A stretch of DNA of 53,635 nt from positions 1-53,635 of the forward strand of contig CACDFH010000004.1 of assembly GCA_902552015.1 (NCBI GenBank). The letters are read 5' to 3'. The position numbers and the translations under genes are program-made. Position 1 is the stretch's first letter. Every line of letters starts with the position of its first letter. The DNA comes from an uncultured marine group I thaumarchaeote (GTDB lineage: Archaea > Thermoproteota > Nitrososphaeria > Nitrososphaerales > Nitrosopumilaceae). The notes under the pieces were generated by a model, which worked only from the letters and a program-made list of their open reading frames with translations, had not been told where the DNA came from and did not search any database. This document shows, piece after piece, positions 3,224 through 12,506 of this stretch.

Positions 3224-4345
3224 TTAAGGGATGTTTGATTTGAATTGTGTCCATGCAGGTTTTGCATTTTCACTAGTGTCAATTAAACCAGAATTACAAA
3301 CATATTCATCTACTCGTTCAAGACGAAATGAGTTAGAAGAAAAACCAGAACCTCCTACAGATTCAATTTGTTGAGAAACACAACTTCCTTTTGGTTTATC
3401 AAATAATCTAGATACTGTGAAAAATTCTATATCTGATTCATTTTCTTCAAAGAAGTTTAAACTTGATTTTATGAATTCTGCTTGATCATTTTGATTTCCA
3501 TTCACAAAATCTGATGTACTCCAACTAATTTCAAAAAATGCTAGTTGATGTGAGGGGAAAATTTCAAGAGATTTCTCCAAATCAGCGATTGCTTCTTGTG
3601 GAGTTCTGTTAATATCACCAACAACATCAGTAGGTTTGTAAGAAAGAGCTATAAAATCACCCATCTCTAATTTAGGAGTTAATTCAAATGAACCACCAGG
3701 TTCCATTCCTTTGTTTATGACATTTTCAAGTGACATACTATTGCCGATTTTTACATCAGGGTGTTTTGATTTTATTTCTGTATAAACATCATCAAAAAAT
3801 TCAACATATGTTGGTATAGAACCACTTGCTCTTTGAAAATGATAATCAATGTCGCCTGCAAATATTACATAATCTATATTTTCATATCTAGAAAGAATCG
3901 AATCCAACACACGAATTGTTTCACCTTCTAATGTTTCACCTATTGCTTGATTACCCATCCATGATGGAAATGGACCTAATCTGTCAGCGTTAATTACTGA
4001 AAAGAAAAGAGTTGTTTTAAAATTATATTTTTCATTTAATTTCATCATAATATCAGTAACACGCCAATCAAAATTTCCTTTTTCAGGTTCAATTTGACCC
4101 CAATACACATACAGATTTGTTCTTCCAGCTCCAGATGTTGATGCAACTTTGTATGCAGATTCCAGATCATCTATGCTTTGTGGAGGATTTATTGTATTAA
4201 TGACAAGACTAATTTTTTCATTTTGAGAGATTGGTTCGCTTGAAAGTGAGTTTGTATCAACTGGATCACTTTTTGTTATAAAATATGCAGATGCTCCACC
4301 TATTGCAACGATTAAAATCACAATTCCAATTAGCCGACTATTCAA
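3224..4345 (-). CDS. Membrane-anchored exported TIM-barrel protein, glycoside hydrolase-like
   Basis: 373 residues opened by a TTG (no in-frame ATG upstream). Residues 5-21 form a single membrane anchor or signal segment, so the rest is outside. The body looks like a clan GH-A type (beta/alpha)8 domain: YVYWGQIEPEKGNFDW near residues 80-94 is the typical second-strand motif of GH5/GH10/GH39-like enzymes, and FFEISWST has Glu272 where a nucleophile would lie. The usual Asn-Glu acid/base pair after strand 4 is not evident; the corresponding area reads FAGDIDYHF (162-170). Either catalysis is altered or the protein binds glycans without cleaving them. The substrate is unknown. Confidence 0.6.
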   Translation of the reverse strand: MNSRLIGIVILIVAIGGASAYFITKSDPVDTNSLSSEPISQNEKISLVINTINPPQSIDDLESAYKVASTSGAGRTNLYVYWGQIEPEKGNFDWRVTDIMMKLNEKYNFKTTLFFSVINADRLGPFPSWMGNQAIGETLEGETIRVLDSILSRYENIDYVIFAGDIDYHFQRASGSIPTYVEFFDDVYTEIKSKHPDVKIGNSMSLENVINKGMEPGGSFELTPKLEMGDFIALSYKPTDVVGDINRTPQEAIADLEKSLEIFPSHQLAFFEISWSTSDFVNGNQNDQAEFIKSSLNFFEENESDIEFFTVSRLFDKPKGSCVSQQIESVGGSGFSSNSFRLERVDEYVCNSGLIDTSENAKPAWTQFKSNIP

Positions 4346-4388
4346 TATGTCTTGAAACTAGTTTGTATTCTAAAATGTTGTTATTTTA

Positions 4389-7043
4389 TTATCCAGAGGT
4401 ACAACCACTGTATCCACATTCAATGCAAATATGACAGCCTTCTGTTAAAACAAGAGTGTTTTTACAGTTTGGACATAATTTCTCTTCTATTTCAGGTTCT
4501 GGTGCAACATAATTTTCATGAGGAAGTTCTTGTGGAACTGTTACTTTGAGTGCTTCGTTAATCTGTTTTAGAATATATGGATTTTTGATATTATTTTTGA
4601 TATAATCATGTAGATAATCAGTTGCTGTAACTTCAAAGGTTTTTTGAGAATTTTCACCGGTCATATGAAGAACCTGTTTGTGTCTTGAACCATCACGGTA
4701 TACTGTAATTCCTTTAAGGCCTAATTCGTGTGCAAGTAAATATGCTGCCTTAACATCTTCTGCAGAAACATCATTTGGCATATTGATAGTTTTTGCAATT
4801 GCATTTCCAATCCAATCTTGCCATACTGCTTGAGCCATTAGATGATCAGTCCAGTGTATATCCATTGCAGTAACAAAGATGTTTTGAATCCATTCTGGAA
4901 TTTCATCAATTCCTCTAACTGAACCATAATTATCAGCAACTTTGGCTAGTATTTCTTCACTGTAGAGACCGTTTTCTCTTAAAACCTCTTCAAATACTTT
5001 GTTTGTGTAGAAGAATCTTCCAACGGTAACACGTTTTTCAAATACAAGAGCAAATGTTGGTTCCATTCCATTTGAACAATCTGCCAACATAGATAATGTT
5101 CCAGTTGGTGCAACAGTTGTTGTGAGAACATGTCTAACACCATGTTTCTGGATTTTTGCAATTAAAGCGTCCCAATCATAATAATGTCGTTGTTTTGGTT
5201 TTTCATAGTATCCAGCAATTGGAATCTTACCTTCAGGATATTCTGTTTTTGAGCAAAGTGGGAATGCACCTCTTGATTGTGCTAGTGCAACACTTTCTTC
5301 CATTGAATAGTATGATAATGCTTCAGATAGTTTGCCCATAAACTCGTAGCCTTCTTTTGAGTTGTATGGAATTCTTAATTTGTATAGCAAGTCTGCAACT
5401 CCCATTACACCAAGACCAATTCTTCTAGACTCTTTTGATGCTACATTAATTTCTGGAACCGGATAATGATTTACATCAATTACATTATCTAGGAATCTAG
5501 TTGTCTTTCTAACAATTTCTTCATATTTCTGCCAATCAAATTCATACTGACCATCTGCTGTTCTTTTTGTAAGATTTGCTAGATTGATTGAACCTAAGTT
5601 ACAAGATTCGTAAGGATACAAACTTTGTTCCCCACATGGGTTTGTTGCACGTAGTGGTCCACCACGTGCTTTTGCAAATACATTATACTTGTTAATTAGA
5701 TCAAAGAAGATTAAACCAGGTTCTGCACTTTTCCATGCAGATGTTGCAATAAGATCAATTAGGTGATGTGCGTTAATTTCACGTACAGGGCTTCCATCTC
5801 TGGTGCTTCTTAGTGTGTAGGCACCGTCTTCACTGTCTACTAGTGCATTCCAAAAGTCACCCCAAACACCAACACTGACATTAAAGTTCTCTAAAACGCC
5901 AGGTTCTGTTTTGTTAGTAATGAATTTTTCAATATCTGGGTGAGATACGTCCATGATTCCCATGTTTGCACCTCTTCTCTTTCCTCCCTGTTTTATGACA
6001 TCAGTTACAGTATTGATGATATTCATGAATGAGACAGGTCCTGATGCAACGCCTGATGTGGATGCAACAATATCACCTTCTTCTCTTAGTTCAGAGTAAT
6101 TAATTCCAACACCACCACCAGATTTGAAGATTAGTGCAGCGTCAGAAGTTGTTTTCATAATTTTTGCCATATCATCAGGCATTCCCAATACAAAGCATGC
6201 AGACAATTGTCCAAGACGTCCACCAGCATTCATCATGGTAGGTGAATTTGGTAAGAAGACTTGATTTACCATTAGATCATTGTATTCTGTAATTCTTGCT
6301 CCGTAGTCAGCAAATTCTTTTGCTGCAAGTTTTGTTAGAAGATCTTTAAAGCTAATCTTTGCTTGTCCTTTTTGTGCAATATCGATATAGCCATTTACTA
6401 AACCTCTGAAATGATATTGGTTAAGATAGTATTCGTCAATTTTAAATTTGTAATCAAACTGATCTAGTTTTGTCAGATATTCTTTTGCTTCCTCAACATT
6501 TTGTGGTGTATTTCCTGCTGGATTGAATACAGAAGAATCATGTAAGATATCACCAACTGCAATTAAGATTGAAACTCTCTCAAACAATTGAGTTGGAGTT
6601 TCAGTAATCTCATTTTTCTTATTTCTAAATAGATATCGAGATGCCAAAACTCTAAGACAATTAAGATCAAAGTCTTTTGAAACAGGATCTAGAACTTTGG
6701 TGTTGAGAACCTTCATTTTCTCATCACGGATCTTTCGTCTCTCATGTCTATACAAGATGTATGACTTTGCGATTTCGCTATGACCTTGTTCTATTAGGGT
6801 TGATTCCACCATATCTTGAATATCTTCAACTGATGGGGGGTTTTCAGTACCAAATCCTTGAGAAGATAATTTGTTAAGAACACCATTTGTTAGAGTTTGT
6901 GCTAAATCACGATCGCCTTCACTAGTTGCAAGTAGTGCTTTATAGATCGCATTTGTAATTTTATCCTGATCAAACTTTGTTGTATCACCATTTCGCTTTC
7001 GAATTTCTGCGAAAGATGACTCTATCTGTGAATTTTCAACCAA
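4389..7043 (-). CDS. nrdJ: Adenosylcobalamin-dependent (class II) ribonucleoside-diphosphate reductase
   Basis: 884 residues. Residues 10-105 are an ATP-cone allosteric domain (IRKRNGDTTKFDQDKI). The catalytic barrel has the three key cysteines: Cys283 in SACFVL, the thiyl-radical Cys470 with Glu472 in NPCGEQSLYP, and Cys481 in ESCNLGSINL. The C-terminus carries six cysteines (857, 860, 870, 873, 876, 881) arranged as in the zinc/thiol-shuttle tail of NrdJ. The enzyme makes deoxyribonucleotides with a B12 radical, which fits the B12-producing lifestyle of these archaea. The start is a TTG directly after an in-frame TAA, so no longer form is possible. A candidate operator region and a putative NrdD-derived regulator gene lie upstream. 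Confidence 0.95.
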   Translation of the reverse strand: MVENSQIESSFAEIRKRNGDTTKFDQDKITNAIYKALLATSEGDRDLAQTLTNGVLNKLSSQGFGTENPPSVEDIQDMVESTLIEQGHSEIAKSYILYRHERRKIRDEKMKVLNTKVLDPVSKDFDLNCLRVLASRYLFRNKKNEITETPTQLFERVSILIAVGDILHDSSVFNPAGNTPQNVEEAKEYLTKLDQFDYKFKIDEYYLNQYHFRGLVNGYIDIAQKGQAKISFKDLLTKLAAKEFADYGARITEYNDLMVNQVFLPNSPTMMNAGGRLGQLSACFVLGMPDDMAKIMKTTSDAALIFKSGGGVGINYSELREEGDIVASTSGVASGPVSFMNIINTVTDVIKQGGKRRGANMGIMDVSHPDIEKFITNKTEPGVLENFNVSVGVWGDFWNALVDSEDGAYTLRSTRDGSPVREINAHHLIDLIATSAWKSAEPGLIFFDLINKYNVFAKARGGPLRATNPCGEQSLYPYESCNLGSINLANLTKRTADGQYEFDWQKYEEIVRKTTRFLDNVIDVNHYPVPEINVASKESRRIGLGVMGVADLLYKLRIPYNSKEGYEFMGKLSEALSYYSMEESVALAQSRGAFPLCSKTEYPEGKIPIAGYYEKPKQRHYYDWDALIAKIQKHGVRHVLTTTVAPTGTLSMLADCSNGMEPTFALVFEKRVTVGRFFYTNKVFEEVLRENGLYSEEILAKVADNYGSVRGIDEIPEWIQNIFVTAMDIHWTDHLMAQAVWQDWIGNAIAKTINMPNDVSAEDVKAAYLLAHELGLKGITVYRDGSRHKQVLHMTGENSQKTFEVTATDYLHDYIKNNIKNPYILKQINEALKVTVPQELPHENYVAPEPEIEEKLCPNCKNTLVLTEGCHICIECGYSGCTSG

Positions 7044-7296
7044 TTATAATCCCCAAGTACATGTTAAACAGATGAGCTAAAAAACTCTTTGGCAATTATT
7101 TTTCTAACAATGGGTAAATAAAATTCACAACGGTACGAAAAACTTCGTTTTAGTTTTTTTGATAGTGCTAACCTTGAAAAATAGATTTCAAGTTAGATCA
7201 GTAAATGATCGAAACGAATTTCGTTTTAAAAATTAGTACATTAATGAAAATTAGAAAAATGATCTAATGTTTGGCTAGGAAAAATTATAATTTATT
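7044..7296 (-). promoter_or_regulatory. nrdJ upstream region with two ACGAA/TTCGT inverted repeats
   Basis: This 253-base gap has no convincing gene. It carries two related palindromes. One is ACGAA-4 bases-TTCGT at 7135-7148. The other is the 15-base AAACGAATTTCGTTT at 7212-7226, a perfect 7-bp inverted repeat around one base. Both right arms continue as TTCGTTTTA. They lie about 92-183 bases before the nrdJ start and after the stop of the HTH/ATP-cone gene. They are plausible operators for a dimeric regulator of nrdJ. The binding protein and the function are inferred, not shown. Confidence 0.45.
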
Positions 7297-9372
7297 TTAC
7301 TTTACAGGCTTGAATGACGAAATTAGTAAAGAAGCTTTCTCAATTGCCTTTTTGATATCAGATTCTTTTGCTTTTGCATCAAATGGCAGTTTGACAAGTA
7401 CACCACCGTCCAATATTTTTGAGATCTTATTACAATCAGAGATCGTTTCGGTTTTGGCAGTTGATTTATCTAATTCACCAGGGTTTAATTCTAATCCCTG
7501 AGAATAAGTATCGCCTTCTAAAACATCCATAATAGAGTTTTTACCATATTTTTCACTGTCAAGTGTAACAAATCTTGTTAGATCATCACTATCCACCATA
7601 GAGATAGACACATCAATTCCCATTTCTTGGCCTTTTTTATGAGCAATATCTACTGCAGTTTCCAAAACTTTGTTTAAGATTTCTTTTCCTTCTTTGTCGT
7701 CTTTGTGTCCAAGTATTTTATGTACTGCTTCTTTTACTCCAACAAAATTTAGAATGATAGATGAGTTATTTTTCTGCATGAATTGAGTTTTTTCTGCGAG
7801 AATTGGATTAACACCACGTCGTATTAGATCAGATACATCTTTTTTACGAGTTGCCATTGCAGCGATCGCAGGTTTCATCAACAATACAAGTCTAGCTCTA
7901 AAGTAAGTTTCATCTTTGCTCGATTCAAGAGCCAAACGTGGAAGATTGATAGTTAATGATCCAAGTTTAATTGATGGTTCAGAAGTTTTGGTAGAGTTTT
8001 TGATTGCGTTTGTTGAACATGCACCTTTTGAAAATGTAATATTACCTCCAAGAGATACAGTTTGTGCAAGAATTTCAGAATGATCTGCAACTTTACCTTT
8101 TTCATAATCAACAATCAATCCAATTTTTGGTGAAGGTGTTGATTTAACAAAAGTATTGTAAGCAGAGAAAATTGCATTGATTAATTTTTTATCGGCTGAA
8201 AGTGGTATTCTGAATGACAATACTGTTGGAGATTTATCTAAACTTGTAGAAGTAGACGACATTGTGAAAACATCTACTAACATTTTTTCAATATCATCTG
8301 TATTCTTTGAGAATTTACCAAGTACTGCAGGTAAATCATCAATTACTATTTCTTGTGATGATTCTTTTGATACTAAATTAAATATCATTGGTAATAATTT
8401 TCTTAGATCATCAAGTGTCTTTGCTACAGGAATTCGTGTAACGTTAGGACATTTTCCTTTTAGTTCAATTCCATCTTCTATAAGCTCTTTAAGATTTAGA
8501 AATATTGTATCAGGAATTAGGGACCATAAACCCAAGTTGGATATGTGTAACTCTCCAGATAGATGAGAATCTGCTATATCTTTAGGCAGTGTGTTTGTGA
8601 GTAAATATTCAGCTAGAGTGTTTTTTCCACTAGAAAATAGGATATCTTCAACACCATTTCGAATATTTTCAACATTTGTGAACATTTCTTGAACCTCAAA
8701 TACAGGCATCCCAAGTCTTGCAAGTTTATTTCGATATTCTTCATGGCCATGCTCTAATAGAACATTATTTACCATTTCACGAATTAATGAACCAGTGAGA
8801 TATGTTGTTTGAAATTTATAGATTCTATTTTCTACCTCTTCTGTAATTTTTTGTGATAATTCAAGTGGAAGACTTCCTTCTCTAACTAGAGATTGAATTA
8901 TTTTCTCAGAGTTGAATTCTTCTATGGAATCATGGGATGTACGAACATACATTTTTCCACTTTCTATAATAGATCGTTCTTCAATTTGTCTTGCTAAACT
9001 GAGAACTAATTTTCCAAGATTTGTAATAGTATAACGTCTTTCAGATTTATTTAATGCAACAAGTGATTGTCTGAGGAGTTTTCTCAGGTGGTAAGCAAAT
9101 TTTCCACTTTCTTTTTTTGATTTAAAGCCAGCTAGAGATTTTAGCTCAGAATAGGTCAAAGGACCTTTGGAGTTTAAAATTCTCAAAATATCAATTCTGT
9201 TTGGGCTAGCCATGACAGAGAAAATCATTCTAACACGTTTTGATGTAGATTGTAAACGACCGTCGCCTTTAGAATCGTCATCCATATCAAGATCTAGATC
9301 ATCATCATCGTCTACGCCGACATCAACATCCATATCTAATTCTTCTTCAAAATCTTCTTCCTGCTTCCCCAT
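7297..9372 (-). CDS. HTH / ATP-cone / NrdD-like fusion, putative nucleotide-sensing transcriptional regulator
   Basis: 691 residues. Residues 12-34 are almost all Asp/acidic. Residues 45-125 form an ArsR-like winged helix (SPNRIDILRILNSKGPLTYS). Residues 140-225 are an ATP-cone (MYVRTSHDSIEEFNSEKI). The rest follows the class III ribonucleotide reductase NrdD: LAEYLLTNTLPKDIADSHLSG with GELHISNLGLW (like GDIHIHDL), GSLTINLPRLALES, and RRGVNPILAE. The glycyl-radical segment and zinc cysteines that end real NrdD proteins are missing, so it should not be a reductase. The gene sits immediately upstream of nrdJ. I infer a dNTP/ATP-responsive repressor, analogous to but not homologous in layout to NrdR. 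Confidence 0.72.
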   Translation of the reverse strand: MGKQEEDFEEELDMDVDVGVDDDDDLDLDMDDDSKGDGRLQSTSKRVRMIFSVMASPNRIDILRILNSKGPLTYSELKSLAGFKSKKESGKFAYHLRKLLRQSLVALNKSERRYTITNLGKLVLSLARQIEERSIIESGKMYVRTSHDSIEEFNSEKIIQSLVREGSLPLELSQKITEEVENRIYKFQTTYLTGSLIREMVNNVLLEHGHEEYRNKLARLGMPVFEVQEMFTNVENIRNGVEDILFSSGKNTLAEYLLTNTLPKDIADSHLSGELHISNLGLWSLIPDTIFLNLKELIEDGIELKGKCPNVTRIPVAKTLDDLRKLLPMIFNLVSKESSQEIVIDDLPAVLGKFSKNTDDIEKMLVDVFTMSSTSTSLDKSPTVLSFRIPLSADKKLINAIFSAYNTFVKSTPSPKIGLIVDYEKGKVADHSEILAQTVSLGGNITFSKGACSTNAIKNSTKTSEPSIKLGSLTINLPRLALESSKDETYFRARLVLLMKPAIAAMATRKKDVSDLIRRGVNPILAEKTQFMQKNNSSIILNFVGVKEAVHKILGHKDDKEGKEILNKVLETAVDIAHKKGQEMGIDVSISMVDSDDLTRFVTLDSEKYGKNSIMDVLEGDTYSQGLELNPGELDKSTAKTETISDCNKISKILDGGVLVKLPFDAKAKESDIKKAIEKASLLISSFKPVK

Positions 9373-9404
9373 TGAATTAATAAATAAAAATTAGGTATTA
9401 AGGC

Positions 9405-9429
9405 TTGTTGTCACTAGTACATACAACAA
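9405..9429. promoter_or_regulatory. TTGTTGT/ACAACAA inverted repeat
   Basis: A 7-bp perfect inverted repeat, TTGTTGT at 9405-9411 and ACAACAA at 9423-9429, with an 11-base spacer. It lies 33-57 bases upstream of the HTH/ATP-cone gene start (9372) and 7 bases after the stop of the zinc-ribbon gene. It could be an autoregulatory operator for the former or a 3' hairpin for the latter; the sequence does not decide. Confidence 0.3.
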
Positions 9430-9435
9430 AAAATA

Positions 9436-9597
9436 TTATTTTTCTTCAACATCCAAAGAAAATTCTGATGTTGACAAGGTTTGGTTACATGACGGACACT
9501 TGTTGTTATAATGTTTTAGAACATCCTTAACAGATTTGAGCATTTTCATGGTAGAAATTTTTTCTCCACATTTTCCACAAACGATTTCTACGGACAT
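9436..9597 (-). CDS. Small zinc-ribbon protein
   Basis: 53 residues from the ATG at 9597. It has two cysteine knuckles, CGKCG near the N-terminus and CPSC near the middle, separated by a basic helix (KMLKSVKDVLKHYNN), which is a minimal zinc-ribbon fold. An in-frame TTG at 9621 would add eight residues; the ATG is preferred. No enzyme domain is visible. Similar small zinc ribbons are abundant in these archaea and often act as adaptors in transcription or translation, but no specific role can be given. It precedes the putative regulator gene on the same strand. Confidence 0.7.
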   Translation of the reverse strand: MSVEIVCGKCGEKISTMKMLKSVKDVLKHYNNKCPSCNQTLSTSEFSLDVEEK

Positions 9598-9666
9598 AAC
9601 AGATCCATTTTTCCAGATCAATTAAAAATTAAGAAAATTTTTTTTAATTAATTCAATAAAATTGAT

Positions 9667-10053
9667 TTACAGTTTTTCTAAGACGATTCCACGTTCGTCA
9701 AATCCTGTAATTTTTAGAGGTGTTCCAATTGGTAGATCTGCCGGAGTTGCAATTTTTGGTAGAAAACCAGACACTCTAATGTCAGAATCATCGATTTCCA
9801 TGACTACCCAAGCATAAGGTGCTAAATCCTCAAATCCTTCAGGAGGGACTGTCATTATTGTATAAGTTGCAACTTTTCCAGAACCTTTGATAATAGAATC
9901 TTCAAATTCCTTACTTCCACATTTTTTACAGAAATAAACAGTTGCAAGATGTAATTCACCACATTTTGTACATTTTCTAGCTAAGATATTTCCAGACTTT
10001 GCTGCTTCTATAAATTCAGGTTTTGCAGACAATTTACACACTTTGGAATACAT
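9667..10053 (-). CDS. DUF35 OB-fold acyl-CoA-associated protein, thiolase partner
   Basis: 128 residues from the ATG at 10053. The N-terminal rubredoxin-like zinc ribbon is formed by CTKCGELHLATVYFCKKCG, followed by an OB fold (GSGKVATYTIMTVPPEGF, PYAWVVMEIDD). This is the DUF35 family, whose members scaffold thiolases and hydroxymethylglutaryl-CoA synthase in archaea and channel the acetoacetyl-CoA intermediate. The gene overlaps the end of the thiolase gene by 20 bases, so translational coupling and a physical complex are likely. A TTG at 10083 would extend it by ten residues without family support. Confidence 0.88.
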   Translation of the reverse strand: MYSKVCKLSAKPEFIEAAKSGNILARKCTKCGELHLATVYFCKKCGSKEFEDSIIKGSGKVATYTIMTVPPEGFEDLAPYAWVVMEIDDSDIRVSGFLPKIATPADLPIGTPLKITGFDERGIVLEKL

Positions 10054-11194
10054 GAACTGCACAACTTGCACCTGTTGCGCCAAAGTTTTGTGTCAGTCCA
10101 ATTTTTGCGTCATTAACGGTTCTTTCTCCAGATTTTCCTGTTAATTGTTCAAAGACTTCAACAACTTGACCAACACCTGTTGCGCCAATTGGATGTCCTT
10201 TTGATTTTAAACCGCCTGATGGATTAATAGGAATTGAACCGTTTAGTTTTGTTTCACCATTACGTGCAGCTGTTGCACCAGTACCTTTCTCAAAGAAACC
10301 TAAATCTTCACTATCAACAACTTCTGCAACAGTAAAGCAATCATGAACTTCAGCAAAGTCAACATCTTTTGCAGTAATACCTGCCATTTTGTATGCAGCT
10401 TCTGCTGCAATTCTAGTACTTGGTATTGTAGTTAATTTTTCACGTCCTTGTAATGCAGCCGGTGATCCACCTCGACCAGAACCAATTACTTTAACATAAT
10501 CTTTTGAATGTTCTTTTGCAAACTTTTCATTACATAAGATAACAGAACTTGCTCCGTCTGAAAATGGACAGCAATCATATAATTTCAAAGGACTTGCAAC
10601 TACTGCAGAATCCATAACATCATCAATACTAATTTTTTTTCTCAAGTGTGCTTTTGGATTTAATACACCATTCTCATGGTTCTTTACTGCTACACTTGCA
10701 AGATCTTCTTCTGTTGCATCAAACTCATGTAGATATGCACGTGCCATTGATGCAAATAGACCTGGAAATGATGCACCTGCTTGACCTTCATAAAAGAAAT
10801 CAGAACAATAAGAAAAGTAAGTTGTTGTCCAATCAGTACCGGTATGTGTAACTTTTTCTGTACCTGTAACTAATACTGCATCATAAAATCCTGCTGCAAC
10901 ATTTGCAAATGCTTCTCTAAATGAAACAGAACCAGAACCACATGCAGATTCTATAGAGAGTGAAGGACATTCAGAAATTCCTAGATTACTCATAACTACA
11001 GGGCCCAAGTGAACTTGTTTATCTGCTACACCAAATACATTTGAGATGTAACCTGCTTGGATTTCTTTAGGTTCAATACCTGCACTTTCAATTGCACCTA
11101 CTGATGCTTGTAAAGTAATGTCAGAAATACTATCATCTAGTTTACCGTACTTTGTACTTCCTCCACCTAAAACACAAACACTTTCTCTTTCCAC
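10034..11194 (-). CDS. Thiolase-family acetyl-CoA acetyltransferase
   Basis: 386 residues opened by GTG. It has the nucleophilic cysteine in ESACGSGSV (Cys84), the second catalytic area EVHDCFTVAEV, and the C-terminal loop GGLKSKGHPIGATGVGQ. This is the archaeal thiolase type that pairs with DUF35 proteins. It condenses two acetyl-CoA to acetoacetyl-CoA (first step of the mevalonate pathway) or runs in reverse to close the hydroxypropionate/hydroxybutyrate cycle. Both routes operate in ammonia-oxidising archaea, and the sequence does not distinguish them. The overlap with the DUF35 gene supports a complex; no HMG-CoA synthase gene is adjacent. Confidence 0.92.
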   Translation of the reverse strand: MERESVCVLGGGSTKYGKLDDSISDITLQASVGAIESAGIEPKEIQAGYISNVFGVADKQVHLGPVVMSNLGISECPSLSIESACGSGSVSFREAFANVAAGFYDAVLVTGTEKVTHTGTDWTTTYFSYCSDFFYEGQAGASFPGLFASMARAYLHEFDATEEDLASVAVKNHENGVLNPKAHLRKKISIDDVMDSAVVASPLKLYDCCPFSDGASSVILCNEKFAKEHSKDYVKVIGSGRGGSPAALQGREKLTTIPSTRIAAEAAYKMAGITAKDVDFAEVHDCFTVAEVVDSEDLGFFEKGTGATAARNGETKLNGSIPINPSGGLKSKGHPIGATGVGQVVEVFEQLTGKSGERTVNDAKIGLTQNFGATGASCAVHVFQSV

Positions 11195-11266
11195 GAAAAT
11201 TTGCTGACCTAGTCCCTATAAAAATTGATCAAGTAATTTCATAAACTTGAATTACTTATAATCAGT

Positions 11267-11707
11267 ATGAGAAAAAAGAACCAAATCTCAGTTGTAAAAT
11301 TAGAAAAACGAAATGTGACAAAGTCTACTAAAAAAATTATAGATAATTTCAAGATAGAAATTGATCAATACTATGATGAAAATGGATTCGTTTCATTTTC
11401 TGCTAAGAATAAAAAATACACAATTTTAGGAACAAATTCACCAAAAGAAGGCATCTGTGAGTGTCCAGAATGTCACAAGGGACAATTATCAGTAATCAAA
11501 TCAATTACAACAAAGAAACGATTCATTGGATGCACTAATTATCAAAATGGATGTAAAGCCTCAGCACCACTCTTACAAAAAGCAATGCTAAAAGTTCTAA
11601 AAACTAAATGCCCAGAGTGTCATTGGCCTACAGTAATTTTCAGATATACGAGAAAACAAGAATGGAAAAGACAGTGTGCCAATATGAAATGTAAGACTAG
11701 ATCTTAA
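11267..11707 (+). CDS. Topoisomerase-type zinc-finger protein
   Basis: 146 residues. A basic N-terminal half (KLEKRNVTKSTKK) is followed by a four-cysteine zinc finger starting CECPECHKGQLSV and ending FIGCTNYQNGC, as in the C-terminal DNA-binding fingers of type IA topoisomerases. A second set is KCPECHWP with CANMKC. No topoisomerase catalytic domain is present, so it is a stand-alone DNA- or RNA-binding module. It converges with the nitrilase-family gene and overlaps its 3' end by 11 bases. Confidence 0.75.
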   Translation: MRKKNQISVVKLEKRNVTKSTKKIIDNFKIEIDQYYDENGFVSFSAKNKKYTILGTNSPKEGICECPECHKGQLSVIKSITTKKRFIGCTNYQNGCKASAPLLQKAMLKVLKTKCPECHWPTVIFRYTRKQEWKRQCANMKCKTRS

Positions 11708-12506
11708 AATCAGAATAGATATCGGTTCTTCTATTCTTTAGTAATGGAAGTTTTTTTCTTATTTCATGAACTTTGTCCAAAGAGATGTTTACATAACCAA
11801 TTCCTTGTCGTTTTTTCATATCTAGTAAGATTCGACCGTAAGGATCAACAGCTAAACTTCTTCCAGAATATACATGACCTAAATGATCAGGTGCTATAAC
11901 ATAACAACCATTTTCAATTGCACGAGATTTATTCAAAGTTAACCAATGTTCTTCCTTCATCGGACCATTAACCCATGCAGAAGGTGCAACAAGAATTTCT
12001 GTACCAGATGACGCAAGAGTTCGTGACATTTCAGGAAATCGTAAATCATAACAGATTAGCATTCCCATTTTTCCAACAGATGTTTTTGTTGGTAATGGGA
12101 TTTCTGTACCAGATGACATTTTGTCAGATTCTTTGAACCCTAAAGCATCGTAAAGATGAATTTTTCTATATTTTCCAGTTACTTCTCCTTTTTTGTTTAT
12201 GATAAATGAAGTATCATATACACGATCTTTTTTTCTACTTTTCTCATACATTGTACCTACTATACTGATTGAGTTTTCTTTTGCACTCTGTGCAACTGCA
12301 GAAACGAATTCACCATTGATGGTTTCTGCTTCTTGTGCTACTTGTTTTGCTGTTTGTGTTGATGGCGTGTAAAACATCATGTATTCAGGGAAGGTAACCA
12401 TATCAGCATTATTTTTTGCTGCTTGGTTTATGTAATCTAGAATTTTTGGAAGATTTTTTTTCTTATCAGTTGATGCTTTGAACTGAACAAGTGCAATTTT
12501 TGACAT
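11697..12506 (-). CDS. Carbon-nitrogen hydrolase (nitrilase superfamily, Nit-type amidase)
   Basis: 269 residues from the ATG at 12506, which gives the standard opening MSKIALVQFKAS. The catalytic triad is visible: Glu41 in TFPEYM, Lys in YRKIHLYD and Cys in MLICYDLRFPE. The family hydrolyses or transfers amide groups; the closest type seems to be the Nit1/Nit2 amidases that clean up deaminated glutathione or omega-amides. The longer reading from 12695 adds a hydrophobic stretch with no family counterpart. A TATA-like TTTTTATTTT on the reverse strand lies about 26 bases before the chosen ATG, which agrees with leaderless transcription. Confidence 0.9.
   Translation of the reverse strand: MSKIALVQFKASTDKKKNLPKILDYINQAAKNNADMVTFPEYMMFYTPSTQTAKQVAQEAETINGEFVSAVAQSAKENSISIVGTMYEKSRKKDRVYDTSFIINKKGEVTGKYRKIHLYDALGFKESDKMSSGTEIPLPTKTSVGKMGMLICYDLRFPEMSRTLASSGTEILVAPSAWVNGPMKEEHWLTLNKSRAIENGCYVIAPDHLGHVYSGRSLAVDPYGRILLDMKKRQGIGYVNISLDKVHEIRKKLPLLKNRRTDIYSDFKI

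Follow-up and report, generated by a model that had tools for sequence, protein, structure and literature searches.

What is a protein built like a class III ribonucleotide reductase (NrdD) doing beside the gene of a class II enzyme? In the window, by which we mean the whole 53,635-nucleotide stretch of thaumarchaeal DNA analysed here, an intact reading frame on the reverse strand (7297–9372) encodes a 691-residue protein of this kind, which we call pseudo-NrdD. Directly downstream on the same strand, after a gap of ~250 bp, lies nrdJ (4389–7043), the gene of a class II ribonucleotide reductase that depends on B12 and has an ATP-cone itself; this is the arrangement described in the original prediction, which regarded the upstream protein as a reductase relic that controls nrdJ, an independently evolved counterpart of bacterial NrdR. 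We find that pseudo-NrdD is, judged from its residues, dead as an enzyme. We also consider it likely that a class III reductase has here been turned into a transcription regulator, which would bind DNA, read ATP and dATP, and control whichever reductase gene is present.

Domain organization and loss of catalytic residues

All features of the protein lie on the reverse strand. It begins with an acidic leader (residues 1–38; 9259–9372), in which aspartate or glutamate occupies 20 of 40 residues; the leader is as acidic as originally described but is not a general feature, being present in some lineages only. Residues 50–124 (9001–9225) form a winged-helix HTH that matches Pfam DUF7347 (2.8e-10; 40.7 bits versus a cut-off of 27.6) and the ArsR-like family HTH_20 (9e-8; 32.4 bits versus 27), and residues 141–213 (8734–8952) form an ATP-cone (PF03477; 1.3e-9; 38.9 bits versus a gathering score of 25.8), so that both predicted N-terminal domains pass their Pfam cut-offs. 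The body, residues 225–691 (7300–8700), follows the NrdD fold. Pfam NRDD matches it in two stretches after the cone, over the cut-off for the whole protein (1.6e-20), and the translation contains the three motifs that had been cited as NrdD signatures (LSGELHISNLG, GSLTINLPRLA and RRGVNPILAE); the NCBIfam NrdD model (TIGR02487), which has a cut-off of 326 bits, scores 64. An AlphaFold2 model built from close relatives only has a mean pLDDT of 63 and a pTM of 0.58; pLDDT stays under 50 for the HTH and most of the time in the cone, but is good across much of residues 320–690. The first 33 PDB matches of this model are all class III reductases, and across the body a profile built from 15 homologues can be aligned with the solved NrdDs of S. 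thermophilus, T. maritima and phage T4. Sequence and structure therefore both identify a reductase fold.

The catalytic parts of that fold are missing. Pseudo-NrdD ends in GGVLVKLPFDAKAKESDIKKAIEKASLLISSFKPVK, at the point where NrdDs run on into a zinc ribbon and glycyl-radical loop, which bears out the claim that the C-terminal radical segment is absent. In an alignment of 46 representative homologues with real NrdDs from the same phylum, neither the cysteine of the barrel strand (PFCQDWD) nor the finger-loop cysteine is retained in any homologue, and the RVxGY glycyl radical site is likewise found in none of the 46. The same site is present in 18 of the 19 real NrdDs used from the phylum, the exception (L071) being a frame that ends early. 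Decay is graded across the homologues. Some outgroup members have a glycyl loop that is present yet broken (SRVSAKHLP versus SRVTGYYQA in the adjoining real NrdD), most members from the window's class end after the zinc ribbon, and the window's own clade (L003–L018) has lost the zinc ribbon as well.

Distribution and gene neighbourhood

Named relatives of the window show that it comes from a Nitrosopelagicus-like ammonia oxidiser. Within the window's class, 165 of 169 genomes encode pseudo-NrdD, as a rule in a single copy, and its presence in nearly all relatives excludes a chance occurrence. The same query matches 171 of 244 genomes of the phylum, the weakest of these matches possibly reflecting the HTH or cone alone; both genome sets were limited to assemblies with a completeness of 90% or more and a contamination of 5% or less. 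In a tree built from the regions that regulators and NrdDs have in common, with the HTH left out, by a quick method with SH-aLRT support only, 50 regulators form one clade (support 100) apart from 19 real NrdDs found in the phylum. By this tree, pseudo-NrdD arose once and is an old family within the phylum, which contradicts the view of it as a relic confined to one genome. Within the class, mean identity is 71% for the HTH, the best-conserved part, and 61% for the ATP-cone, whereas segments of the body, the fastest-diverging part, average 20–33%, a pattern that fits a regulator and not a working reductase. No relative was detected in the viral contigs scanned. In two genomes (G031:C1:1756085-1758069 and L117:1852-3945), the reading frame is split by a stop or frameshift, which could be an assembly error or decay.

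Surveying the neighbourhood of nrdJ, as the original prediction had proposed, gives 126 loci (including some genomes fetched twice) from the taxonomic order to which the window belongs, in which nrdJ lies directly downstream on the same strand wherever the contig continues. Three loci from a different family of this class (L073–L075) have the two genes convergent, tail to tail. At least eight genomes from other classes have the regulator immediately upstream of an intact, real nrdD (L057, L058, L065 and L175–L179), so the predicted link to nrdJ stands but has to be widened, as the family also accompanies class III genes. Two of these loci (L057 and L178) belong to one genus and have nearly identical regulators followed by nrdDs that fall in different clades of the tree; the reductase has thus evidently been exchanged while the regulator stayed. 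Orthologues had been expected to share both the HTH and a place beside reductase genes. The aligned representatives do all keep the HTH and ATP-cone, but most outgroup members outside a few families have no adjoining reductase gene, and the adjacency argument is weaker there.

Several small features accompany these loci. Between the regulator and a real nrdD, a short glutaredoxin-like frame with CPRC or CTRC occurs on the reverse strand at three loci (L057:6274-6636, L065:6176-6484 and L179:5400-5708), which suggests an operon with an NrdH-like reductant. At L046, L047, L049, L050 and L052, which represent several other families of the window's taxonomic order, the nrdJ frames match the window's NrdJ weakly and some exceed 1000 codons, pointing either to inteins or to a different NrdJ subfamily; here, too, the regulator immediately precedes nrdJ. 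In the window itself, a small zinc-ribbon-like frame (CGKCGEKIS...CPSCNQTL; 9435–9600, reverse strand) lies between a thiolase and zinc-ribbon/OB pair and pseudo-NrdD.

Candidate operators and a probable nucleotide sensor

The gap upstream of nrdJ contains two palindromes that are candidate operators. On the reverse strand, AAACGAAATTCGTTT (candidate operator 1; 7212–7226) abuts the inverted repeat GATCATTTACTGATC (7196–7210), and ACGAAGTTTTTCGT (candidate operator 2) lies at 7135–7148. Blocks conserved across the window's genus in this gap are AAACGAAATTCGTTT, GATCA..TGATC and ACGAAGTTTTTCGT. At the place of candidate operator 2, Nitrosopumilus relatives have TATGAAnTTCATA, ~100 bp before the nrdJ start codon. 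Palindromes with a GAAnTTC core precede nrdJ in 42 of 83 non-redundant upstream regions versus 1.1 expected from shuffles, a ratio that overstates independence because the upstream sequences are related. Exact copies of TATGAAnTTCATA number one to three in 10 of 12 genomes, and in nine of these ten one copy stands before nrdJ; the other genomic sites are mostly inside genes unrelated to reductases and occur in near-chance numbers. The GAAnTTC palindromes are clear only in Nitrosopumilaceae, with none in the nrdJ upstream regions of more distant families. Autoregulation through the same palindrome was considered and rejected, as it occurs in 0 of 41 upstream regions of the regulator itself. A scan of positions 4000–12000 of the window gave no Rfam match, and hence no known riboswitch before nrdJ. 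At one locus (L031), a 19-bp perfect palindrome, TTTTATGAATTTCATAAAA, lies 111 bp before nrdJ and is the longest form of the candidate operator.

If pseudo-NrdD senses nucleotides, its ATP-cone is the likely site. Only two ATP-cones, those of pseudo-NrdD and NrdJ, occur in the genome examined. By alignment, E151 and K157 of the regulator correspond to Glu15 and Lys21 of the E. coli ATP-cone, the residue roles of which have been described (PMC12662201), and R144 and E151 are invariant. The phosphate-contacting Lys9/Arg10 pair of the E. coli domain is T/S in the regulator, which makes nucleotide binding by the regulator cone less than certain, and the conserved residues appear to fit such binding in part. 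In T4 NrdD, Gln114 and Glu181 contact the base at the specificity site (PMC12662201). These positions fall on non-matching residues in our profile alignment; as this stretch aligns poorly, we only lean toward the view that the contacts have been lost in the regulator, and it is their seeming loss that leaves the ATP-cone as the likely sensor. In working NrdDs, ATP and dATP in the cone alter its position and contacts (PMC11226230, PMC12662201), and in NrdR the same domain shifts oligomers and DNA binding (PMC9110341).

Proposed function and alternative explanations

Could pseudo-NrdD still be a ribonucleotide reductase that uses a different radical source? It has kept the overall NrdD fold, and in the window's clade a cysteine lies near the finger loop (GACSTN). 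We rejected this residue as a catalytic finger-loop cysteine, as it is unconserved in sister genera; the other catalytic cysteine position is non-cysteine in all 46 homologues, and the glycyl radical is gone, often with its loop and, in the window protein, with the zinc ribbon. Since the body also diverges fastest and a complete nrdJ adjoins, reductase activity is very hard to credit. Control at the protein level, in which the pseudo-subunit would bind NrdJ or NrdD and relay ATP/dATP signals from its cone, has more in its favour but is improbable. Winged helices can bind proteins, and the HTH could thus serve as a protein contact in a molecule that has kept the reductase fold and adjoins two unlike reductase classes. 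NrdJ and NrdD are very different, yet one regulator clade accompanies both; NrdJ already has an ATP-cone of its own; and strong conservation of the HTH within the class, together with palindromes before nrdJ, also speaks against this explanation.

The outgroup copies away from reductase genes raise another explanation, that pseudo-NrdD is a transcription factor of a wider regulon, for example in DNA replication or the cell cycle, with the reductase link reflecting one target or conserved gene order. We regard this as similarly doubtful, because the regulator repeatedly adjoins unlike reductase genes (nrdJ and nrdDs of two clades), also as a convergent pair in another family, and because the other exact palindromes in each genome are mostly within reductase-unrelated genes. 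The evidence supports well the view that pseudo-NrdD is an inactive NrdD homologue with an HTH, tied to reductase genes where NrdR is missing. As the original prediction held, a dead reductase stands beside nrdJ: catalytic residues are retained in none of the 46 homologues, nrdJ or nrdD adjoins in distant lineages, palindromes precede nrdJ, and none of 81 genomes from the class has a match to bacterial NrdR (TIGR00244) that passes the cut-off, the NrdR profile also being absent from the NCBIfam matches of the window protein. Loss of catalytic parts, a DNA-binding head and a place beside a working enzyme's gene suggest that pseudo-NrdD is probably a nucleotide-reading switch. We infer binding at the palindromes, nucleotide sensing and the direction of control.

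We propose that an ancestral archaeal NrdD acquired a winged helix at its N-terminus and ceased to be a catalyst. Its body would then probably be the scaffold of a dimer in which the ATP-cone senses ATP and dATP and the winged helices read palindromes upstream of the reductase gene. Exchange of ATP and dATP in the cone could rearrange the two winged helices on the NrdD-like dimer and thereby change palindrome occupancy before nrdJ. In the window genome, nrdJ would be tuned to the dATP/ATP ratio, most simply by repression at high dATP, and in other lineages the regulator would control the real nrdD. More broadly, we see about an even chance that a reductase-derived transcription factor, with an origin separate from that of NrdR, reads dATP/ATP with the enzyme's allosteric domain and controls class II or class III reductases across much of this archaeal phylum.

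Pseudo-NrdD and NrdR share an ATP-cone, a DNA-binding-type domain, linkage to reductase genes and upstream palindromes, but NrdR begins with a zinc ribbon and lacks a reductase body, whereas pseudo-NrdD has a winged helix and an NrdD body. With NrdD itself (PF13597/TIGR02487; PDB 1h78, 4coi, 9d3x and 8p23), it shares the ATP-cone, the reductase barrel with its TINLPR strand and, in most of its relatives, the zinc ribbon; unlike NrdD, it lacks the glycyl radical and catalytic cysteines and has an additional N-terminal HTH. That HTH resembles ArsR-like winged helices (HTH_20 and DUF7347) in sequence but here precedes an ATP-cone and reductase body in one protein. BirA and PutA are also enzyme folds that report on their own metabolite and bind DNA; they keep catalysis, whereas pseudo-NrdD has lost it. 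The literature searched, with subscription papers mostly outside the search, contained no description of an HTH–cone–NrdD regulator. The known repressor dedicated to reductase genes, NrdR, has been described as rare among archaea (PMC9110341, PMC12176259). If our proposal is correct, ammonia-oxidising archaea and many of their relatives would have a counterpart that controls dNTP supply at the level of genes, and the family would be one of the few examples in which the change from enzyme to regulator of the same pathway can be traced, as its intermediate steps can still be seen. Finally, outgroup regulators such as G368:C9:33387-35009 and G288:C24:22241-23842 score at about the TIGR02487 cut-off (327 versus 326 bits) and are therefore likely to be annotated as anaerobic reductases, so that some genomes may be credited with an enzyme that is absent.
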